Positions 26,359 to 42,721 of a stretch of 64,000 bases of DNA are shown piece by piece; the first letter of the stretch is position 1; each line of letters opens with the position of its first letter. The translations under genes were made by a program, and so were the position numbers. Source of the stretch: Bacteroidota bacterium (GTDB taxonomy: Bacteria > Bacteroidota > Bacteroidia > Palsa-965); the NCBI GenBank assembly GCA_016194975.1, contig JACQAM010000009.1, positions 64,788-128,787 on the forward strand. Reading direction: 5' to 3'. A model generated the notes under the pieces. It searched no databases. It saw only the letters and a program-made list of their open reading frames with translations, and was not told the origin of the DNA.

Positions 26359-26363
26359 AATTG

Positions 26364-26525
26364 ATGCGTTCGATCAGAAAAATATTTTTTACTTTTTCAT
26401 TAGTCGCTTTCTGCAGCATGGCCATGGAAAGTTGCTGGCTGCTTCACGGAAAAAATCATTGCGGCGATTGCCCGAATTTCAGCACGAACGGAAAACCAAA
26501 GAAACAAAAGAAGCATCATCACTGA
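26364..26525 (+). CDS. Micro-lipoprotein 1 of a tandem trio
   Basis: A 53-residue protein: hydrophobic signal (FFTFSLVAFCSMAMES) with a candidate lipidated Cys, then HGKNHCGDCPNF with a CxxC pair, and a tail of Lys and His (KPKKQKKHHH). It is too small for an enzyme. It is related to the third protein of the trio (SCxLxHxxxxCxxC pattern). A peripheral metal- or haem-binding lipoprotein is one guess; there is no recognised family. Confidence 0.6.
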   Translation: MRSIRKIFFTFSLVAFCSMAMESCWLLHGKNHCGDCPNFSTNGKPKKQKKHHH

Positions 26526-26567
26526 ATCGTACAGTGTTCATTTTATCAGTATCAAAAATTAAAATGA

Positions 26568-26720
26568 ATGAAACTGCCCCGGAAATATTTTATTCTCCTC
26601 ACTGTTTTAGCTTTTTTTTCAGTGGCAAGTTGCAACTTCTTTAAACCCGGCGCCTGGGCACCGCTTCCGACCAAACACGCTGCCGCAAAACAGGAAATGA
26701 AAAAAAACAAACACAAATGA
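26568..26720 (+). CDS. Micro-lipoprotein 2 of a tandem trio
   Basis: A 50-residue frame, too short to stand out in an automatic ORF search. It has a clear lipoprotein signal (YFILLTVLAFFSVASCNFF) followed by a Pro/Ala stretch and a Lys-rich tail (KQEMKKNKHK). It has the same plan as its neighbours, but without a CxxC pair. It starts 42 bp after micro-lipoprotein 1. Confidence 0.55.
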   Translation: MKLPRKYFILLTVLAFFSVASCNFFKPGAWAPLPTKHAAAKQEMKKNKHK

Positions 26721-26733
26721 ACAGGTTCTCGCA

Positions 26734-26895
26734 ATGAAGAATTCTATAAAACAATATTTTCTCTTCCTGCTTATCCTTTCATTTTTGTCAATGTCAATGC
26801 AAAGTTGCCGCCTCTTTCATAAAAATATTTGCACGACTTGTGGAGTGGGTGATGGCACCAAAGAGAAAAAAGGAACGCATCACAACTGGCGCTGA
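26734..26895 (+). CDS. Micro-lipoprotein 3 of a tandem trio
   Basis: A 53-residue frame starting 13 bp after the second one. The signal FLFLLILSFLSMSMQSC is followed by RLFHKNICTTCGVG with a CxxC pair, and a basic His-containing tail (KEKKGTHHNWR). The alignment with micro-lipoprotein 1 (SMAMESCWLLHGKNHCGDC against SMSMQSCRLFHKNICTTC) shows they are paralogues. Confidence 0.58.
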   Translation: MKNSIKQYFLFLLILSFLSMSMQSCRLFHKNICTTCGVGDGTKEKKGTHHNWR

Positions 26896-26963
26896 TTTTC
26901 CCCGTAGTTTTTTTCAATTCATCCACGAATTCATAATTCGCATATCCGCACTTTCCGCATTCC

Positions 26964-27133
26964 GTTCCCCCATTCGTAATTCGTTTCCGAATTCGCATCC
27001 TATAAATATTGTCTCAGCCACTGACGCGCTTTATTTTCGTCCGTAAAAAGTTTTGCCGGAAAAGGTGGTTTCTTCAATCCGAGGTAAAGATTGGCAAGCA
27101 TTGAAGACACAGGAGAATTTGTAATGATGGAGG
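26964..27133. repeat. Left copy of a 170-bp direct repeat flanking the FG-GAP gene
   Basis: It matches 29071-29240 at a constant offset of 2,107 bp with no gaps and few substitutions. The copy begins GTTCCCCCATTCGTAATTCG and includes the last 44 or so codons of the STAS-like gene plus the spacer beyond its stop. The right copy is the intact gene. Confidence 0.92.
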
Positions 27134-27161
27134 CCTCAAACTTTAATCCTGAAATATCCAT
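27000..27161 (-). pseudogene. Truncated second copy of the STAS-like gene's 3' end
   Basis: A 53-codon frame (ATG at 27161) ends IITNSPVSSMLANLYLGLKK then PPFPAKLFTDENKARQWLRQYL, almost identical to the end of the intact gene at 29107. Most changes against the intact copy are synonymous or conservative (Ile to Val, Ser codons), so it looks like the end of a diverged homologue rather than a decaying copy. The N-terminal two thirds are missing. Whether the short frame is translated is unknown. Confidence 0.75.
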
Positions 27162-27218
27162 AGAAGTTGTTTTTTATTTTGTTAGTTATATTTTTTTCAT
27201 TTTAAATAAATTTCCCGG

Positions 27219-28718
27219 TTATTCAAATAAAATCTTCTTCGTCTCTATAACATCCCCCAATTGCATTTTCACAAAATAAACTCCAGCCGACAAATCATTT
27301 CTCTTGATTGCAGCAAGGTGTTCTCCTTCCGACATATTTTCATTTTCAACAACTTCAATTTCCCTTCCAGTTAAATCGTATAGGGAAATTTTCACATTCT
27401 GAGATTGATTAAGTGAAAAGGAAAGTGTGGCATTTTCATTTGTAGGATTCGGATACAGTTGAACATTATTTGAAATTTCATTTTGCATAATTCCGGAAGG
27501 TGTAATAAGATTTCGGAAAATGGAAAATACGCCCACTCCTGAAGAGTTGCTGTTGTTGACAATGATTTCATTTTTTCCATCACCGTCTATGTCAGCAAGT
27601 ATTACACCGTCTGGATATTGTAAGGTTGCGAAATCAACATGGGCTGCCATTGAAGAGGTTGTAAAACTTCCAGGCGTAGAAGTATTCCGGAAAACAGCAA
27701 TTGTATTTGCAACATTATTCGAAATGACAACATCCGGTTTGTTGTCATTGTCAATATTGCCAACAGCAATACTGAACGGATCACAACCGGAGACACCTGC
27801 GGAAAATGCAACTGGAGCCGCGAAGGATGTGGTTGAAATTGTTCCTGCTGATGTCATCAAACTTCTGAGAACGACCAATTGATCAACCTGAAACCTGCAA
27901 GCAGCAACAATATCTCTGTGACCATCCACATCAATATCTGAAATCGAGAGATCATAGGGTTGTCCGGGAGTTGTCAGATCCACTCTTGTTGCGAAAGAGA
28001 TATTTCCAACTGTACTTGTATTCTGAAAAATTGCAATTGTTGGTGCCGCTTCATAACCTACGGCAAGATCTTTTTTTCCGTCGCCATCAATATCGGCAAC
28101 TGAAAGTCTGCGAAGATTAGCGAAAGGAACTTGCATTGTTATTTCTGCTGCAAAACTAATTGTACCAATTGTACTTGTATTGCGCATGATCACAACTCTT
28201 CCTCTCTGATCATCACAAGCTACAATATCATCTTTTCCGTCACCATCAATATCGGCCAGTTGCAATCCTTTTGTATTGGCAATGGTATTGTCAAAAATCT
28301 GCTCAGCGGCAAAAGATAAATTTCCAACGGTACTTGTATTTCTGAAAACGGAAAATCCATAGGGATTGGAATCCCATTTGCTCGTCAGCACATCTTTTTT
28401 TCCGTCGCCATCCAGATCCGAAGTTTGCGCTTGCCATGAAGCACCGCTAACTAAAATATCTGCAGTAGTTGCGGAAAAAGAACTTGAATTAATAACGCCA
28501 ACAGTACTTGTGTTGCGGTAAACAGAAATTGGTCCTGCATAAGTTACAGTCATATCCAGTTTTCCGTCGCCATCCATATCGGAAGCAGCAACATTTGACC
28601 CACCGTTGAAAAGGGGTGCAGATGTAAAATCAACTCGTGCAGCAAATGATCCTGTGGTAATTTGCGCTGCAAGAACAAAAGGAAATGCTGCCGTAATAAA
28701 AAGATAGAAGTGTTTCAT
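27219..28718 (-). CDS. Secreted FG-GAP/VCBS-repeat protein with T9SS sorting domain
   Basis: A 499-residue exoprotein with a signal peptide ending VLAAQI. It has about seven repeats of roughly 55-65 residues, each carrying a Ca2+-binding-type loop such as SDMDGDGKLDMTV, ADIDGDGKDDIVA and GNIDNDNKPDVVI, separated by the phrase VFRNTSTVG. They probably fold as an integrin-like beta-propeller. The end (NNVQLYPNPTNENATLSFSL to KKILFE) is a type-A T9SS domain. It lies between two direct repeats and looks like inserted cargo. Confidence 0.88.
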   Translation of the reverse strand: MKHFYLFITAAFPFVLAAQITTGSFAARVDFTSAPLFNGGSNVAASDMDGDGKLDMTVTYAGPISVYRNTSTVGVINSSSFSATTADILVSGASWQAQTSDLDGDGKKDVLTSKWDSNPYGFSVFRNTSTVGNLSFAAEQIFDNTIANTKGLQLADIDGDGKDDIVACDDQRGRVVIMRNTSTIGTISFAAEITMQVPFANLRRLSVADIDGDGKKDLAVGYEAAPTIAIFQNTSTVGNISFATRVDLTTPGQPYDLSISDIDVDGHRDIVAACRFQVDQLVVLRSLMTSAGTISTTSFAAPVAFSAGVSGCDPFSIAVGNIDNDNKPDVVISNNVANTIAVFRNTSTPGSFTTSSMAAHVDFATLQYPDGVILADIDGDGKNEIIVNNSNSSGVGVFSIFRNLITPSGIMQNEISNNVQLYPNPTNENATLSFSLNQSQNVKISLYDLTGREIEVVENENMSEGEHLAAIKRNDLSAGVYFVKMQLGDVIETKKILFE

Positions 28719-28975
28719 AAGTTTAGGTTTTAGAACTTATTGAAAATTACTAAAATTTAGGTTGAAGAATTAATTGTGCCGAACGGATTTCAATTTTCTT
28801 GCTCGTTCCTCCGGTTGATGTACGCTGGTCAAGAATTTCACTCAATATTTCACCAACACTTTACAAGTGTATGTAATCTAAAGTATAAAGTCAAGTTTTT
28901 TACAAAATAGAGTAAACACTACGAAATCATTGGTATGATTATCTTTGGAAGGAAACCCGAATTCATAATTTGTAA

Positions 28976-29019
28976 ATTCTCACTTTGCATTTTCGCACCT
29001 ATTCTCACTTCGGTCCCCC
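28976..29019 (-). repeat. Dispersed GGGGGAACGAAGTGCGAA family, copy A
   Basis: Read on the minus strand it starts GGGGGACCGAAGTGAGAATA and continues GGTGCGAAAATGCAAAGTG. It matches copies at 29034 and 59047 with few substitutions. Confidence 0.8.
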
Positions 29020-29033
29020 ATTCGTAATTGGCA

Positions 29034-29078
29034 AATTCGCACTTCGCATTTTCGTACCTATTCGCACTTCGTTCCCCC
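29034..29078 (-). repeat. Dispersed GGGGGAACGAAGTGCGAA family, copy B
   Basis: On the minus strand it starts GGGGGAACGAAGTGCGAATA and continues GGTACGAAAATGCGAAGTG. It abuts the STAS-like gene and overlaps the edge of the right direct repeat. Confidence 0.85.
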
Positions 29079-29240
29079 ATTCGTAATTCGTTCCCGAATT
29101 CGCATCCTATAAATATTGTCTCAGCCACTGACGCGCTTTATTTTCGTCCGTAAAAAGTTTTGCCGGAAAAGGTGGTTTCTTCAATCCGAGGTAAAGATTG
29201 GCAAGCATCGATGATATAGGAGAATTTGTAATGATGGCGA
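29071..29240. repeat. Right copy of the 170-bp direct repeat
   Basis: This copy consists of the 3' end of the intact STAS-like gene and its downstream spacer, and matches 26964-27133. Confidence 0.92.
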
Positions 29241-29499
29241 GCGCTTTTACAAGTTTCGGCGTTTCCTCCGAAGCAAGTTCCCTGGTTTCTTTATCCGCAC
29301 CGCCTACGTTCGTCACTTCACCCAGCCAGCAGATCTTTTTTCCATTCGAAAGCTCAGCGATCTGCCGGAAAGAATTATGGAGTGAATCTTTAGTGAGCAC
29401 AGCTCCTTTATTGAAAACGGAACAGAAGATCCCGTCATCTTCAAACCACATTCTTGAAAGAGGTGAGTCAATTACATTGACATGATTTGGGGGAATCAT
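29107..29499 (-). CDS. STAS/SpoIIAA-like small protein
   Basis: A 131-residue soluble protein: a beta strand (VIDSPLSRMWFEDDGIFC), an alpha segment beginning LTKDSLHNSFRQIAELSNGKK, CWLGEVTNVGG, then AIITNSPISSMLANLYLGL and the end AKLFTDENKARQWLRQYL. This is the alpha/beta pattern of the SpoIIAA/STAS-like family found in Bacteroidota. A TAATTTTG promoter box at 29537-29544 would place the ATG at 29499 correctly; the TTG 33 bp upstream is unlikely. Its 3' end is duplicated at 27000. Confidence 0.72.
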   Translation of the reverse strand: MIPPNHVNVIDSPLSRMWFEDDGIFCSVFNKGAVLTKDSLHNSFRQIAELSNGKKICWLGEVTNVGGADKETRELASEETPKLVKALAIITNSPISSMLANLYLGLKKPPFPAKLFTDENKARQWLRQYL

Positions 29500-29609
29500 T
29501 TTACAGGGAGATTTTTGGTTTTTATTTTGCAAAGTTCAAAATTAACCGGAAAAACTTTCGTGCATCAACATTAAAAAAATCATCCGAAGATGCGTGGTAA
29601 TATTTTTTC

Positions 29610-29676: not shown

Positions 29677-31377
29677 TCAGTACTTTGAGATTTTTTGTGT
29701 GATGCGTGTGCCGTTCATCTGAACCTGCAACAAATAAATTCCTGCCGGCTGATCAGCAATGTTCAAAACATGCACTGCATCTTTTGCGCACGTGAAATTC
29801 TCACTGTAAATGGTTTTCCCGGTAATGTCATACAATGTGATCCGTAGATCTCCCGCAACAGAAGTTTTAATATTAATAACTGTTGAAGCCGGGTTTGGAT
29901 AAATGAAGAAACCATTTGACAAGGAAGGAGTGCTGATGCCCGTTCCGTCATTGATGGAAACCGTATCACAAACAGAAGCACATCCGTTTGCATCTGTTAC
30001 GCACACCGTATAAGTTCCGAGTCCAAGGCCAGAAGCAGTTTGTGTTGTTTGAGATCCTGGTGACCACAAATAAGTGTATGGGCCTGTTCCACCCGTTGGT
30101 GTAGCAGTTGCAGATCCATTGGTGCATCCAACACAAGTAGCATCTGTTCCGCTAGTGGTAACGGTCATCACCGGTGGTTGTGTTATGCTGAAGATCTGGT
30201 TGGTGGAGCAACCATTTGCATCCGTGACCACCACACCATGATTTCCTGCGCAGAGATTCGAATCGTTCTGTGCAGTTCCACCTGACGTCCATGAATACAT
30301 AAACGGAGATGTACCTCCTGTTGGATTTGCCATTGCAACTCCATCGCACGATCCGTTGCACGATGCATTGATCATCGTAACGTTTGCCATCAGCGGATTC
30401 GGTTGCATTACAGTTACAGTTGAGGTGGCCATACATCCGTTCGCGTCTGTTACTGTTGCAGTGTAAGTTCCCGCTGTTAAACCGTTGATCATTGTTGTAG
30501 TTTGATTTCCCGGCGACCACATGTAAGTGTAAGCGGGTGTTCCGCCACTTGCGCTCACTGTAGCTGATCCGTCGTTGCCGCCATTACAAGAAACAGAAGT
30601 GGAAGTTGTAGTTGCCATTACTGCGGTGGAAGGTTGTGCGATGGTTGTAGCGACAGAAGTTGCGCATCCGTTCGCATCAGTGATCGTACACGCGTAAGTT
30701 CCCATTGGTAATCCGGTAGCTGTTTGCGTCATTTGTGCGGGTGTTGAATTCCAGCTATAAGAATAAGGAGGCGTTCCGCCGAATGGAGTTGCAGTTGCAG
30801 TTCCGTCACTTCCGCCAAAACAATTTACAGAAGTGTTGGATGATGTTGCACTAACAGCAGAGGAAGGCTGAGTAATAATTGAAACAACAGTTGTTGAACA
30901 ACCATTGTTATCTGTCACTGTGCAAGTGTATGAACCCGGTCCGAGATTAGTTGCAGTTTGTGTATTCTGTACCGGCGTTGAATTCCAGGAATAAGAATAG
31001 TTGGGAGTTCCTCCCGAAGCAACTGCAGTTGCAGATCCGTTCATTCCACCGAAGCAGGCAACGTTTACATGCGATTCTGTTGCGGTAAGCATTGTAGGTT
31101 CCGTGATGGTCACTGTTGCTGTGGCCGATTGCACGCCATTGGTAACAGTAACGGTATAACTCCCTGCACACAGGTTGGTCGCTGTTTGTGTTGTTTGCGT
31201 GGGTGTGGAGTTCCACGAATAAGTTCCTGCAGGAACAAAACCGGATTGATTTGCCATTGCAGATCCAATACATTGTCCGTTGCACGACTCATTCACAACG
31301 TTACTGATCGTCACAGTTTGAGCGAATGCGTAATAAGAAAGGAACATTGCAAAAAAGATTGTGTAAATTTTTTTCAT
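29677..31377 (-). CDS. Secreted SprB-repeat protein with T9SS sorting domain
   Basis: A 566-residue exoprotein. After a signal peptide (MKKIYTIFFAMFLSYYAFA) come about six SprB-type repeats of roughly 75 residues, each with a CxG...G-A pattern and the phrase GTYTVTVTDANGC. The end (LSNGFFIYPNPASTVINIKT to TQKISKY) is a type-A T9SS domain. SprB repeats form the stalk of gliding adhesins; here they are short and the sorting domain is type A, so surface anchoring through that domain is expected. I start at the MKKIYT methionine; 16 extra N-terminal residues are possible but have no signal character. Confidence 0.88.
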   Translation of the reverse strand: MKKIYTIFFAMFLSYYAFAQTVTISNVVNESCNGQCIGSAMANQSGFVPAGTYSWNSTPTQTTQTATNLCAGSYTVTVTNGVQSATATVTITEPTMLTATESHVNVACFGGMNGSATAVASGGTPNYSYSWNSTPVQNTQTATNLGPGSYTCTVTDNNGCSTTVVSIITQPSSAVSATSSNTSVNCFGGSDGTATATPFGGTPPYSYSWNSTPAQMTQTATGLPMGTYACTITDANGCATSVATTIAQPSTAVMATTTSTSVSCNGGNDGSATVSASGGTPAYTYMWSPGNQTTTMINGLTAGTYTATVTDANGCMATSTVTVMQPNPLMANVTMINASCNGSCDGVAMANPTGGTSPFMYSWTSGGTAQNDSNLCAGNHGVVVTDANGCSTNQIFSITQPPVMTVTTSGTDATCVGCTNGSATATPTGGTGPYTYLWSPGSQTTQTASGLGLGTYTVCVTDANGCASVCDTVSINDGTGISTPSLSNGFFIYPNPASTVINIKTSVAGDLRITLYDITGKTIYSENFTCAKDAVHVLNIADQPAGIYLLQVQMNGTRITQKISKY

Positions 31378-31584
31378 AATTTTTTTTTTAGTGTTGGGTT
31401 TTTGATTTGAGGTTGACCGATTCAAATATCAACCACACCGCTGCAATAAAAACGGCGTGGAAGAATTGGTTACGATAAATATGAATTAAGATGTTCGCCT
31501 TTATTAATTGCAAAATAATTTACATTTCCCTCGGGGCGGGACTGATTTCGATAACCAGCGGTTAATTTTCGATACCCGGGAAGA

Positions 31585-32295
31585 TTATCGCAGAAAACTT
31601 TTGATGGCAGTGCCCAGTTCTTTTTTCCTGGAACGGCTCACCGGTAATTTATATCCTGCCACACTCAGGAGACTGTTTTCATAGCTCGAAATTTTATCGA
31701 GACGCACAATGTAAGAATGATGAACACGAAGAAACTGTCCCGCAGGCAGGCGTGCGAGAATCGTTTTCATGGTGGAGTGAGCGGTGAATTTTTCGCGCAG
31801 TGTGTGAATGACCACGTAATCGGCCAGCGATTTGATGAAGATGATCTCGGCCGGATCAATCTTTACAATACGTGCTGTGGTTTTGACGTAGAGCGGATTT
31901 GCGCCGGGATTTTTTTTATTCTGTTCAAAAACTTTCTGTGCTTTTTTTACTGCTTTCTGAAATCGTTCGGGAAGAATAGGTTTGACCAGAAAATCCAGTA
32001 CGTCGAAATCAAATGCGCTGGCTGCATATTTTTTATGTGATGTGATGAGGACAACCGGTGGAAGATTGTCATTGTATTTTTCAAGCATTTCCAGTCCGCT
32101 CATTCCCGGCATTTCCACATCCAGAAAAATAAGGTCCGTTTTATGATCCTTCAGGTAATTCAGTGCATCCTGTGCGCCGGAAAAAGTTCCGCAGGGTTCA
32201 AGCGAGGCATTTTTCCTGATCATGATCTCCACGATCCTGCAGGTCATTTCGTCGTCATCGACAACGATACAATTCATCCGGTTGGGTGCAGCCAT
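31585..32295 (-). CDS. LytTR-family response regulator
   Basis: A 236-residue DNA-binding regulator. The receiver domain has the acidic pocket VVDDDE and phospho-acceptor Asp59 in LIFLDVEMPGMSG. The last 100 residues (TTARIVKIDPAEIIFIKSLADYV, HSYIVRLDKISSYENSLL, LPVSRSRKKELG) are a LytTR domain. It lies 29 bp downstream of the hybrid kinase, so the two very likely form a phosphorelay. The first ATG (MAAPNRMN) is used; the ATG six codons later is equally possible. Confidence 0.9.
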   Translation of the reverse strand: MAAPNRMNCIVVDDDEMTCRIVEIMIRKNASLEPCGTFSGAQDALNYLKDHKTDLIFLDVEMPGMSGLEMLEKYNDNLPPVVLITSHKKYAASAFDFDVLDFLVKPILPERFQKAVKKAQKVFEQNKKNPGANPLYVKTTARIVKIDPAEIIFIKSLADYVVIHTLREKFTAHSTMKTILARLPAGQFLRVHHSYIVRLDKISSYENSLLSVAGYKLPVSRSRKKELGTAIKSFLR

Positions 32296-32324
32296 GCGTC
32301 GAAATTAATTAATCCGCGTTAATT

Positions 32325-34544
32325 TCATTTTATGAAATCAAGTTGTTCCAGTTCTTTGAGCGCGATCAGTGTCATTTGCCGGAGTTTCCCGATTTCCGCC
32401 AGGTTTTTTTTCAGGGAATTTTTCCGGCACTGATCTTCCAGTTGTTCTACCATCTTCATTTTTTCTTTCCGGAAAATATTTCCTGCTCCCGATCTGAATT
32501 TATGAGCCAGCTCACCCAGCTCGTTGTTTTTTTTCTTCTCCGCAAGTTTCGACATTTTCCGGATCATTTTCGGCGCGTTCACCGAAAAGATCCTGATGAG
32601 TTCTTGTTGCATCTCCTTGTCGTTATGCGTTATCTTTTCGAGATAGCGGAGATCGATCACTTTAAAATTATTTTTTTTCGCCGGAGTCTTTTCAGTTTTC
32701 TTCGCGGGCTTTCGCTTTTTTCCGGTCCAGTAAATGATCTTTGAATACAATTCATCCGGATCAACAGGTTTGGAAACATAGTCGTTCATTCCTGCTGCGA
32801 GGCATTTTTCTTTTTCTCCTTCAATGGCGTGAGCAGTCACCGCAATGACCGGGACATTTTTCCATTGATTAATTATCCTGATGCGCCGCGTTACTTCATA
32901 TCCATCCATCTCCGGAAGTTTAATATCCATCAGGATCACATCGTATTTATTTTTCTCAAGCATCTTCAGCGCAATTCTTCCATCTTCTGCCATGTCGATA
33001 GTGATCTGCTTTTTCTGAAAAAGGATACGCATCAATTCCCTGTTCATCTCGTTGTCCTCGACAAGCAGAATCCGCAACGAAGAAGTTCTTCCACCTGATA
33101 ATTTTTTTTCTGCCTCGTAAATTTTATTTGATTCCGGTTTTTTACAATTTGCTTTTTCGTAAGCAAGCGTGAAATGAAAAGATGTGCCTTCGTTCAATTT
33201 ACTATTGACAGAGATCTCGCCGCCCTGTAATTCCACGAGATGCCTCGAGATCGCAAGGCCAATACCGGTTCCCTCATGTTTTTTCCAATCAGAACGATTC
33301 GCTTTTCCGAAACGGTCAAAAATGTAAGGAAGTTCATTCATCGATATTCCCACGCCGGTATCGGAGATCGTAAAACCTGTTTCAACATGATCTTCTTTTT
33401 CATCGAGCATTGTGCAGTAAACCGAAATTTTTCCACGCTCTGTGAATTTTAATGCGTTAGAAAGAAGATTGAGTAAGATCTGCCCTAAACGAACCGGGTC
33501 GCCGATGAGAGAAATTTCCAGTCGCGGATCAATCTGCGATTCAAGTTCTATTCCTTTCTGATTTGCAGTCACGCTGAATACACGCAATGCATCATTCACG
33601 ATCTTGGGAATATTGAAATCGTGTTTTTCCAGTTGTATTTTTCCTTCCTGCAAACGGGAAAGATCCAGCAGGTCATTGATGATCACCAGTAGATTTTCGC
33701 CCGAACTACGTATGATGTCAGCATATTCTTTTTGTTCGCCGTTCAATGGCGATTGAATAAGGAGCCGCGCAAAACCTACAATGGCATTCATCGGTGTGCG
33801 TATCTCGTGGCTGATATTGGCAAGAAACATTTCGGAAACATTTCGCGCAAGCTCAGCGCGCTCCGATCTGTCTTTTTCTTTTTTCAGGAATTCTTCCGTT
33901 TGTTTTCTCTTCGTTACATCGCGGATAATGGAAATGAGTTGTGTTTTTCCACCGGAAACAACCGGCTTGAGTGAATACTGAATATTTATCCGCTGTCCGT
34001 CTTTGCGAATGATAATTGTTTCACCGGAATCGGAAGAATTTTCATGATTCAAACGCTGACGGAGACGCTGCATCAATTCGTCACGAAGTTCAGGCGCTAC
34101 TATTTCAAAGAAGGAAGACATTTTCTGTAACTCTTCCAGCGAGTAGCCATATAATTTCTGCAACGCATCATTGCAATAAATAAAATTGCTGCCTTCTGTA
34201 ATGGCAACACCTTCTCCCATTTCACTCTGTGCGCGAAGAAGTGTTTCATAGCGTTCGGTCTGTGCGCGCAAAAGTTCTTCTCTGCGGATGATCTCTTCAG
34301 TGCGCTGTTCGACTTTTTTTTCCAGCGTCTGGTTGAGCTCTTTCAATTCTGCCAATTGTTCGCGCGCCACTTCGAGTACCAATTGCACCCCGACAAAAAA
34401 TTCCGCGAACTCATCATCATGTTCGGGAAGATTCACGTTTTCAGAAAAATCTCCTATTGCTGCTTTGGCGAAAACCGGAACGATGCTCTCGAGCCGTTCT
34501 TTTACAAAACGACGGTACGCTGCAATATCATTTTCATCATTCAT
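32325..34544 (-). CDS. Hybrid sensor histidine kinase (PAS-HisKA-HATPase-REC-Hpt)
   Basis: A 739-residue soluble kinase without transmembrane helices. The order is an N-terminal helical region and coiled coil (about 65-105), a PAS domain (about 105-220), HisKA with His246 in NISHEIRTPMN, HATPase with N and G boxes (LLNLLSNALKFT, DTGVGIS, GTGIGLAIS), a receiver with Asp540 in VILMDIKLPEMDG, and a C-terminal Hpt with His681 in LAHKFRSGAG. This is a complete internal phosphorelay. It overlaps the preceding STAS-like gene by 4 bp and is followed by the LytTR regulator. The signal is probably cytoplasmic. Confidence 0.94.
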   Translation of the reverse strand: MNDENDIAAYRRFVKERLESIVPVFAKAAIGDFSENVNLPEHDDEFAEFFVGVQLVLEVAREQLAELKELNQTLEKKVEQRTEEIIRREELLRAQTERYETLLRAQSEMGEGVAITEGSNFIYCNDALQKLYGYSLEELQKMSSFFEIVAPELRDELMQRLRQRLNHENSSDSGETIIIRKDGQRINIQYSLKPVVSGGKTQLISIIRDVTKRKQTEEFLKKEKDRSERAELARNVSEMFLANISHEIRTPMNAIVGFARLLIQSPLNGEQKEYADIIRSSGENLLVIINDLLDLSRLQEGKIQLEKHDFNIPKIVNDALRVFSVTANQKGIELESQIDPRLEISLIGDPVRLGQILLNLLSNALKFTERGKISVYCTMLDEKEDHVETGFTISDTGVGISMNELPYIFDRFGKANRSDWKKHEGTGIGLAISRHLVELQGGEISVNSKLNEGTSFHFTLAYEKANCKKPESNKIYEAEKKLSGGRTSSLRILLVEDNEMNRELMRILFQKKQITIDMAEDGRIALKMLEKNKYDVILMDIKLPEMDGYEVTRRIRIINQWKNVPVIAVTAHAIEGEKEKCLAAGMNDYVSKPVDPDELYSKIIYWTGKKRKPAKKTEKTPAKKNNFKVIDLRYLEKITHNDKEMQQELIRIFSVNAPKMIRKMSKLAEKKKNNELGELAHKFRSGAGNIFRKEKMKMVEQLEDQCRKNSLKKNLAEIGKLRQMTLIALKELEQLDFIK

Positions 34545-34948
34545 TTTATTTCCCCGGGCATTAACCAGTTTTTTGCTTCCTGCTCGGTGTCAAAATATTT
34601 TACTTTATCCGATCGGCCAGAAGCCATGATGATAAAATTGGCAACATATTTCAGGAATGTGTTTGCGCCGTAGATCGCTACCTTGTCGAATACCATCAGC
34701 TTAAGAGCTTTGTTCGCAGCACTGCGCGATGCCGCATTGGTCTTACCGATCTTCTGCAGATCAGTAAGTATGAGAACGGGAATATTTTTTTTCGCCAGTT
34801 GGTCAATGAGAAGCAGTGTATCATCCTGCATTTTCGTTACCGTTTCTGCGTCCTGGTTACCGCGGTAAATATTCCTGATCAGGTTTTCATGGTCAATGAA
34901 CACTTCATTTACCATTATGGCAGTCGTTGCTGTGTCAGATCCTTTCAT
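34541..34948 (-). CDS. STAS/SpoIIAA-like protein upstream of the hybrid kinase
   Basis: A 135-residue soluble protein. The middle (IDQLAKKNIPVLILTDLQKIGKTNAASRSAA) and end (NFIIMASGRSDKVKYFDTEQEAKNWL) follow the same alpha/beta plan as the protein at 29107. It overlaps the kinase start by 4 bp (ATGA), so the two are co-translated. STAS proteins commonly act as partners or switches of kinases, so it may tune the kinase. The phosphorylatable Ser of anti-sigma antagonists is not obvious by eye. Confidence 0.75.
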   Translation of the reverse strand: MKGSDTATTAIMVNEVFIDHENLIRNIYRGNQDAETVTKMQDDTLLLIDQLAKKNIPVLILTDLQKIGKTNAASRSAANKALKLMVFDKVAIYGANTFLKYVANFIIMASGRSDKVKYFDTEQEAKNWLMPGEIK

Positions 34949-40617: not shown

Positions 40618-41919
40618 ATGAAGAAAAATTTCATGGAAGAACTGCGCTGGAGAAAAATGCTCCAGGATGCCATGCCGGGAACGGAAGAATTACTGAAGAA
40701 TGAAATGGTGCGTGGTTATATCGGGTTCGATCCTACAGCAGATTCGCTGGGTGTTGGAAATCTTGTGCAGATCATGACCCTGTTGCATTTTCAGAATTGC
40801 GGACATAAACCGATCGCGCTTGTTGGTGGCGCTACGGGAATGGTGGGCGATCCTTCCGGAAAAAGTGCAGAACGGAATTTATTGTCGGAAGAAATTCTCA
40901 ATCACAATCTTTCCTGTCAGAAGAAACAACTGGAAAAATTCCTTGATTTCAATTGCGGGGAAAATTCGGCGGAGATCGTGAATAATTATGACTGGTTCAA
41001 AGGAATGGGTTTCCTCGAATTCATCCGTGATATCGGAAAACATCTAACGGTGAATTATATGATGGCGAAGGATTCGGTGAAGAACAGAATAAGCGGAGAA
41101 GACAGAGAAGGAATGTCGTTCACAGAATTCGCGTACCAGTTGGTGCAGGGATATGATTTCTATTATCTCTGGAAAAATCACGGAGTAAAAATGCAGATGG
41201 GAGGAAGTGACCAGTGGGGAAATATTGTAACCGGAACAGAACTCATTCGCAGGAAAGATGGAGGAGAAGCGTGGGCGCTCGTAACCCCATTGATAAAAAA
41301 AGCGGATGGAACGAAGTTCGGAAAAACAGAAAGCGGAAATCTCTGGCTCGATCCGAAACGCACTTCTCCTTATGAGTTTTACCAGTTCTGGATCAATGCG
41401 GCAGATGCTGATTCGGAAAATTACATACGCATTTTTACGTTGCGTGGCAAAGAAGAAATTGAAGCGCTGGAAAATGAACATCGTGCAGAACCACATTTGA
41501 GAAAATTGCAGAAAGCGATCGCGGAAGATATTACCACGAGAGTTCATGGGAAAGATGCGCTGAATGCAGTGATGGGAATTACTTCGTTGTTCATGGCGAA
41601 GGATGCTCTTGCACAGTTGGACGCAATGGATGAGGCGGCGTTTGCAAAAATGATTTCAGATTCAGGAATGAATGCTGCGGAAATTTCTGTCACTGAATTT
41701 GCGAATGGCATCAGCATCATTGAACTTCTCACTTCGCGCACAAAGATGTTTGAATCAAATGGTGATGCGATGAAAATGATAAAGGGAAATGGTGTGTCGC
41801 TGAATAAAGTGAAAGTGACGGATCAGAAAATGATAGTGAATACTTCGAATCTGGTGAAGGGAAAGTATATGATCGCCCAGAAGGGGAAGAACGACTATTG
41901 TCTGGTCATTATACAATAG
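40618..41919 (+). CDS. tyrS: Tyrosyl-tRNA synthetase
   Basis: Charges tRNA-Tyr; a class I enzyme of 433 residues. Visible are GFDPTADSL, VGGATGMVGDPSGKSAERN, the Tyr-binding YQLVQGYDF and QMGGSDQWGNI, and the KMSKS-equivalent KFGKT. The C-terminus has an S4-like RNA-binding domain. The signature that is normally HIGH or HVGN reads GVGN here, so the first His is replaced by Gly. The last 22 codons are duplicated at 42585 beside the toxin gene. Confidence 0.93.
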   Translation: MKKNFMEELRWRKMLQDAMPGTEELLKNEMVRGYIGFDPTADSLGVGNLVQIMTLLHFQNCGHKPIALVGGATGMVGDPSGKSAERNLLSEEILNHNLSCQKKQLEKFLDFNCGENSAEIVNNYDWFKGMGFLEFIRDIGKHLTVNYMMAKDSVKNRISGEDREGMSFTEFAYQLVQGYDFYYLWKNHGVKMQMGGSDQWGNIVTGTELIRRKDGGEAWALVTPLIKKADGTKFGKTESGNLWLDPKRTSPYEFYQFWINAADADSENYIRIFTLRGKEEIEALENEHRAEPHLRKLQKAIAEDITTRVHGKDALNAVMGITSLFMAKDALAQLDAMDEAAFAKMISDSGMNAAEISVTEFANGISIIELLTSRTKMFESNGDAMKMIKGNGVSLNKVKVTDQKMIVNTSNLVKGKYMIAQKGKNDYCLVIIQ

Positions 41920-42082
41920 TTCTTTGGGGGAACGAAGTGCGAATTTGTCAGACGAACTGACTGCGAAAATGCGGAGTGCGGATGTGCGAATCTCGAACTC
42001 CCCAACTTCGAATTTCGGAAGTCCGCACTCCGCATTTTCGCGCGGTTCGCAATTCGTTCCGCCTACTGATCCTTCAAATTAT
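41846..42082. repeat. Left flank of the toxin-antitoxin insertion
   Basis: Three blocks here recur to the right of the toxin gene: 41846-41910 (the tyrS end, 61 of 65 bases equal to 42585-42649), 41947-41961 (GTCAGACGAACTGAC, equal to 42653-42667), and 42031-42082 (52 of 52 bases equal to 42670-42721). The last 20 bases of the third block equal the 3' end of the amidohydrolase gene at 42702. Confidence 0.93.
41929..42060. repeat. Long hairpin built from dispersed-repeat words
   Basis: GGAACGAAGTGCGAA at 41929-41943 pairs with TTCGCAATTCGTTCC at 42046-42060, one mismatch. Inside, the 20-base arm GCGAAAATGCGGAGTGCGGA at 41963-41982 has a perfect complement at 42022-42041. The first arm begins the GGGGGAACGAAGTGCGAA family motif at 41926. 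Confidence 0.85.
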
Positions 42083-42113
42083 TTTTCGTATTTTAGTATA
42101 AATAATTTTAGTT

Positions 42114-42326
42114 ATGAAAACTCAATTTATTACTGATAGCAAAGGCAAGAAGATCGCAGTTGTTCTTTCCGTTGAAGAGTACAATCGTATTGTTGAAGAG
42201 CTGGAAGAGTTGGATGATATCAAAGCATACGATCGTGTTAAAGTTTCGAAGAGCAGTTCTGTTCCTGCGGCACTCGTATTCAAATCGATCGAAAATAAAA
42301 GAGGGCGGAAATGGGCTACGAAGTAA
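42114..42326 (+). CDS. Antitoxin, Phd/YefM-like
   Basis: A 70-residue acidic protein starting MKTQFITDSKGKKIAVVLSV and continuing EEYNRIVEELEELDD, the pattern of Phd/YefM-type antitoxins whose N-terminus binds DNA and whose C-terminus neutralises the toxin. It overlaps the toxin gene by 16 bp. Expected role: bind and inhibit the RelE-like toxin and repress the operon. Confidence 0.88.
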   Translation: MKTQFITDSKGKKIAVVLSVEEYNRIVEELEELDDIKAYDRVKVSKSSSVPAALVFKSIENKRGRKWATK

Positions 42327-42565
42327 TCATCCGCAAACAAGCGGTGAAGCAGCTTGAAAAGATCAGCGATCCGGATTATTCTAAAGTGAAAAAGACAATT
42401 CTCAGTTTAAGTAATAATCCAAGACCTTCAGGATATAAAAAGTTGAAAGGGAGAGATGGATTCAGAGTGAGACAAGGAGATTACAGGATCATTTACGAAA
42501 TTCTTGATCATGTGTTGATTGTAGATGTGATCACGATCGGGCACAGGAAAGATATTTATGATTGA
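42311..42565 (+). CDS. RelE/ParE-family toxin
   Basis: An 84-residue basic protein: VIIRKQAVKQLEKIS at the start, PRPSGYKKLKGRDGFRVRQG in the middle and the typical end DYRIIYEILDHVLIVDVITI then GHRKDIY. This fits the RelE family of mRNA interferases or the related ParE gyrase poisons. The RIIYEI and GHRKDIY ends favour RelE. It is encoded behind, and overlaps, its antitoxin. The pair is flanked by duplicated tyrS and spacer DNA. Confidence 0.92.
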   Translation: MGYEVIIRKQAVKQLEKISDPDYSKVKKTILSLSNNPRPSGYKKLKGRDGFRVRQGDYRIIYEILDHVLIVDVITIGHRKDIYD

Positions 42566-42573
42566 TATAGTGA

Positions 42574-42721
42574 GGAACGAATTGCGAATCTTGTGAAGGG
42601 AAAGTATATCATCGCCCAGAAGGGGAAGAACGATTATTGTTTGGTCATTTTTGTCAGACGAACTGACTTCGCATTTTCGCGCGGTTCGCAATTCGTTCCG
42701 CCTACTGATCCTTCAAATTAT
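42574..42721. repeat. Right flank of the toxin-antitoxin insertion, with tyrS 3' fragment
   Basis: It begins GGAACGAATTGCGAA (42574-42588), then a diverged 65-bp copy of the tyrS end (42585-42649), GTCAGACGAACTGAC, and the 52-bp block ending inside the amidohydrolase gene. The four differences in the tyrS copy are three synonymous changes and one Met to Ile. GGAACGAATTGCGAA and its complement at 42685-42699 form 15-bp inverted ends. Confidence 0.92.

Follow-up and report, generated by a model that had tools for sequence, protein, structure and literature searches.

Single-crossover integration in E. coli of DNA with one homologous end left a partial duplication of the homologous locus in 56 of 60 clones; the duplications measured 109-950 bp in the 14 that were sequenced and were attributed to circularization after partial loss of an end, followed by a single crossover (PMC3240628). 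In homology-facilitated illegitimate recombination of competent bacteria, as described in the same paper, one end is likewise joined by homology and the other illegitimately, and this process was proposed by the authors of a study on T6SS effector-immunity arrays of Vibrio cholerae, in which new modules stand beside a common anchor and older 3' ends are shifted downstream (PMC5361080). Illegitimate recombination has also been invoked for the small variable segments of E. coli, S. aureus, and S. pyogenes, 10-18% of which are flanked by direct repeats (PMC2884548).

The window analyzed here, a stretch of 64,000 nucleotides from a Bacteroidota genome of 4.1 Mb, contains an FG-GAP gene flanked by two copies of the 3' end of a DUF7793 gene, and a parallel case in which a toxin-antitoxin pair is flanked by two copies of the tyrS end (Table 1). 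These loci share with the E. coli integrants one homologous end and a partial duplication of the homologous locus, but the integrants arose in laboratory conjugation with a plasmid and lacZ was disrupted (PMC3240628), whereas here the gene stays whole. One homologous and one illegitimate end would also agree with homology-facilitated illegitimate recombination, and the tyrS locus has a short common joint; the classic prediction, however, is an insertion together with a deletion, whereas here the sequence has a partial duplication of the homologous end. As in the V. cholerae arrays, new DNA sits beside a common anchor with the older 3' end shifted downstream, although in those arrays successive modules replace effectors under immunity selection (PMC5361080), whereas the anchors here are unrelated (DUF7793 and tyrS) and the kinds of cargo vary. 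The loci also resemble the small variable segments in having variable DNA between direct repeats, but the repeats of those segments are mostly <30 bp (PMC2884548), compared with 65-200 bp here, gene ends included.

Table 1. Features of the FG-GAP locus and of the parallel tyrS locus (positions in the window).
Feature	Position	Strand	Basis
Small lipoprotein-like genes; the accessory block has its left edge at the one that congeners keep here	26363..26895	+	sequence read directly
Left repeat copy	26951..27130	-	repeat search, alignment
Remnant: open frame of 53 codons, C-terminal part corresponding to the DUF7793 3' end	27001..27161	-	ORF, alignment
AT-rich junction between cargo and remnant, 88 bp, 25% GC; source of the ATG that opens the remnant frame	27131..27218	-	
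Cargo: secreted FG-GAP protein with T9SS C-terminal sorting domain, 499 aa	27219..28718	-	domain search
Two 59-bp units of the species-private extragenic repeat, between the DUF7793 and FG-GAP genes	28956..29073	-	
Right repeat copy: DUF7793 gene end and spacer	29058..29237	-	repeat search, alignment
Intact DUF7793 (STAS/SpoIIAA-like) gene, 141 aa; last ~43 codons within the right repeat copy	29107..29532	-	domain search, alignment
Remaining accessory block: SprB-repeat gene, LytTR response regulator, hybrid histidine kinase, second DUF7793 gene	29677..34948	-	
tyrS, host gene of the parallel case	40618..41919	+	domain search
First copy: tyrS 3' end and full palindromic spacer element	41846..42082	+	repeat search, alignment, fold
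Cargo: RelB-like antitoxin and ParE toxin	42114..42565	+	domain search
Second copy: tyrS 3' end remnant (42585-42649) and shortened spacer	42585..42721	+	repeat search, alignment

The direct repeat at the FG-GAP locus was confirmed and exceeds what chance would produce. The initial annotation had described ungapped repeats at 26964-27133 and 29071-29240 with an offset of 2,107 bp; an independent repeat search recovered this pair at the same offset as 180 nt with 95% identity, and placed its true start ~13 bp to the left of 26964. BLAST widens the repeat to 26928-27130 and 29034-29237 (204 nt, 92%), the extension being weak. The coding part spans 130 bp with 96.9% identity and occurs in two copies only in the sampled 808 kb of this genome, while a search of the whole genome with the repeat returned two long matches and 11 others of 28-51 bp, all of them spacer matches. 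Pairwise alignment revealed a mismatch-free run of 115 bp that extends from the gene end across the stop codon into the spacer, mismatches being concentrated at both edges.

The product of the gene at the right copy matches DUF7793 (PF25056, 6e-27) and, weakly, a SpoIIAA-like domain, and the left copy is represented by the remnant frame, which bears out the reading of the right copy as the end of an intact STAS-like gene and of the left one as that end plus spacer only. The claim that a single secreted FG-GAP/T9SS gene lies between the repeats was likewise confirmed by its FG-GAP and Por_Secre_tail domains; open reading frames and domain search identified it as the sole long sense-strand gene there, and found no integrase or transposase between the repeats at this locus or at tyrS. 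The first ten residues of the remnant (MDISGLKFEA) and the 88-bp junction had no convincing match in the ~2 Mb of sequence searched. Beside the edge of the accessory block, three small lipoprotein-like frames stand in a row at 26363-26895, where congeners seemingly have one.

An identical order had been claimed for the toxin locus, and the interval 40618-42721 does comprise tyrS, a spacer, the genes for a RelB-like antitoxin and a ParE toxin, a second tyrS end, and a second spacer. The duplicated tyrS coding sequence amounts to 65 bp only, and, compared with the first copy, the second is missing 33-35 bp behind the tyrS end along with most of the central palindrome. In five relatives (G001, G002, G004, G005, and G007), tyrS directly faces a convergent amidohydrolase gene with no RelB/ParE, thus indicating by direct comparison that the pair is an insertion. 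The displaced tyrS end encodes I, as in most other relatives aligned there, whereas the intact copy encodes M, which hints that the displaced end may be the old resident and that the intact end came with the cargo. At the joint between cargo and remnant, tyrS and the repeat arm that follows ParE have 6 bp (CGAATC) in common. A repeat element at 42566-42701 encloses the displaced tyrS end within its outer stem, with its left arm before the tyrS fragment and its right arm after it.

Both copies at both loci carry a dispersed extragenic repeat. Searches with the pattern GGAACGAANTGCGAA gave 24 exact arm copies in this genome and 0 in six congeners. The repeat takes the form either of a palindrome of ~130-150 bp with inner hairpins or of head-to-tail half units of 59 bp. 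As DNA, the palindromic form folds far better than shuffled sequences (z from -6 to -12); of the two spacers, that at tyrS is palindromic and folds strongly (z -11.9), and the 59-bp-unit spacer at the FG-GAP locus is unremarkable (z -1.1). Cruciform repeats with the arms GGAACGAATTGCGAA and TTCGCAATTCGTTCC and inner hairpins, along with arrays of the 59-bp half units, were seen between genes at 41926-42064, 42572-42701, and 28956-29104 of the window, and elsewhere at L117:3993-4142 and L115:4063-4210. A REP-associated transposase (RAYT) was considered as the driver of the repeat and rejected; three Y1_Tnp genes are present in the genome, with no exact or near-exact arms in the 2.5-5 kb around them. 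At the DUF7793 locus both copies bear the spacer repeat at an equal position after the stop codon, which indicates that the duplication postdates the spread of the repeat in this species, and because the spacer is private to the species and present in both copies, the FG-GAP cargo would have come from a donor within this species or very close to it.

Comparison with relatives places the whole region in an accessory block. In six relatives, four of them congeners and the other two members of the same family, the mlaE gene and that of its ATPase adjoin feoA-feoB across a gap of a few hundred bases, which contains a small lipoprotein gene in several of these relatives. The distance from mlaE to feoA is ~9 kb in the window, of which ~8 kb is extra; a fifth congener (G006), which retains mlaE, lacks the block too, and feoA was not found in the stretch examined. 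By this gene order, the block comprising the remnant, the FG-GAP, DUF7793, SprB-repeat, LytTR, and hybrid histidine kinase genes, and the second DUF7793 gene is an insertion, confined to this species, that separates mlaE/lipoprotein from feoA. Since the block is missing from congeners it is accessory as a whole, and the DUF7793 host gene is therefore itself a newcomer. The flanking repeats are absent from congeners as well, which supports insertion of the FG-GAP gene.

No close relative of the FG-GAP gene was found among 29 other genomes, in a comparison set with one genome per species. The initial annotation had suggested searching relatives for the STAS-like gene with and without the FG-GAP gene; of the 14 other DUF7793 loci examined in named genomes, none has an adjoining FG-GAP gene and 11 place the DUF7793 relative beside a histidine kinase, the DUF7793 alignment covering distant relatives only and possibly leaving out this genome and near ones. 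These counts suggest that the FG-GAP gene most likely joined an existing DUF7793-kinase module. The picture of cargo inserted at a host gene thus holds for the insertion, but not for an old host gene, because DUF7793 lies inside the accessory block.

Eight substitutions separate the duplicated coding sequences over both loci, five of them synonymous and the others I/V and M/I exchanges, in agreement with the earlier statement that most differences are synonymous or conservative. The binomial probability is ~0.03 at a synonymous expectation of 0.25, for small counts and a test that is post hoc. Differences that are mainly synonymous suggest two alleles that diverged under selection before meeting, an origin that would fit the sequences better than free drift of one copy after duplication.

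We propose, with a probability of about 0.62, that the FG-GAP gene was added beside the DUF7793 gene by recombination that matched at one end only, and that the RelB/ParE pair at tyrS has the same origin. The DUF7793 3' end, together with its spacer and the FG-GAP gene, would have arrived on DNA from this species or one very close to it, and RecA would have paired the common end with the resident DUF7793 gene. The far end would then have been joined non-homologously, by end-joining into the resident gene as in homology-facilitated illegitimate recombination; alternatively, the fragment may have circularized before a single crossover. The expected product is a full gene, spacer, cargo, displaced resident 3' end, and resident spacer, in which the host gene would stay whole and the cargo would be removable again via recombination between the repeats; the perfect 115-bp stretch suggests that excision should be possible. 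A partial duplication of the homologous end does flank the foreign DNA, as one-sided integration expects, and the foreign segment is absent from relatives, the tyrS site being empty in five and the whole FG-GAP block missing from congeners. The genome contains a ComEC-family gene and no gene for the end-joining protein Ku. We infer from which donor the DNA came, in what order the steps occurred, and that it entered through competence. Given that the repeats enclose neither an integrase nor a transposase, and that similar duplications exist elsewhere in this genome and in a family member, nothing points to a dedicated cargo system.

A decayed tandem duplication could yield the same picture at the FG-GAP locus alone: DUF7793 would once have stood in two tandem copies, the FG-GAP gene lying either between them or behind them, and the 5' part of the second DUF7793 gene would since have been lost. 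DUF7793 genes do often occur in tandem groups in relatives, two to four side by side, and the accessory block has a second DUF7793 gene, divergent according to domain search. We nevertheless consider this history unlikely, as it needs a duplication and at least one precise deletion, sits poorly with the abrupt divergence at the edges of the common stretch, and leaves unexplained tyrS, a housekeeping gene with the same architecture, 65 bp of coding sequence only, and relatives without cargo. Direct repeats of any local sequence, as at these two unrelated genes, would result in one event from a long target-site duplication, in which a staggered break of 100-200 bp is filled in around the cargo. 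Copies formed in this way would begin identical and drift unconstrained, instead of differing mainly by synonymous changes, and the lack of Ku and of a transposase in the insert also makes such an event quite improbable. Known transposons produce much shorter target duplications.

Restoration of the 3' end of the entered gene, as at classic attachment sites, is what a small integrative element would produce if it replaced the end of its target gene in the manner of integrase-borne islands. There is scarcely any chance that such an element accounts for the loci, given that no integrase accompanies the FG-GAP gene, or RelB/ParE as the only long sense-strand genes at tyrS, and that no attachment sequence is common to both loci besides the dispersed spacer repeat, unless an integrase acts on that repeat in trans. 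An insertion sequence or transposon was rejected on the basis of the missing transposase ORF between the repeats, a duplication of 65-200 bp, and ends that differ between the loci. For integron gene cassettes, which would have adjoining attC sites and a linked tyrosine integrase, the spacers give a mixed picture, with strong palindromic folding at tyrS and none beyond the ordinary at the FG-GAP locus. The species-private cruciform repeat could itself be a recombination site at which integrase-free cassettes are gained or shuffled behind gene ends, with the duplicated ends as a by-product, but we hold this to be highly improbable.

Further examples were sought by self-comparison of 808 kb of this genome and of 400 kb from two relatives. 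The 808 kb contain four local duplications of gene or tRNA ends around short cargo, namely the FG-GAP gene, RelB/ParE at tyrS, a lipocalin-like lipoprotein gene behind a T9SS gene, and a GIY-YIG gene behind tRNA-Met; the lipocalin-like case may be merely a paralogous T9SS tail. Two comparable cases were found in the 400 kb, both in G007 and both at least partly dispersed repeats. The pattern is thus not unique to the FG-GAP site or to the species.

Other observations were made during this survey. The GIY-YIG gene (L169:3132-3612; G000:C9:151132-151612) lies directly behind tRNA-Met, and its 3' end runs into a second copy of the tRNA end together with a terminator and the opening codons of a further GIY-YIG frame; a literature search on Bacteroidetes GIY-YIG genes located at tRNA genes found nothing related. 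A ParD/ParE pair (L150:1580-2536; G000:C23:321580-322536) is flanked on both sides by direct copies of a different dispersed repeat that is rich in GGGCGGGC. At L134:2563-12808 (G000:C23), a gene of 1367 aa and shorter neighboring frames have common stretches of 106-425 bp with 82-99% identity, and the short frames look like displaced 3' modules of the large protein. In the family member G007, a gene for a 236-aa secreted protein (L190:16702-17669; G007:C78:196702-197669) stands between two 115-bp copies (95%) of a local intergenic region.

One-sided homologous integration is a phenomenon of an already known kind, and these loci are of interest for the private cruciform repeat and for the way such scars recur, rather than as a new system. 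They also call for caution, since finding a gene's 3' fragment next to a cargo gene does not necessarily imply a dedicated mobile element. For this uncultured-type lineage of Bacteroidia, the scars would be readable footprints of single genes and toxin-antitoxin pairs that were added behind genes, leaving these unbroken and without a mobile element, and because the common spacer is private to the species, they would record within-species gene exchange that could be counted across strains.
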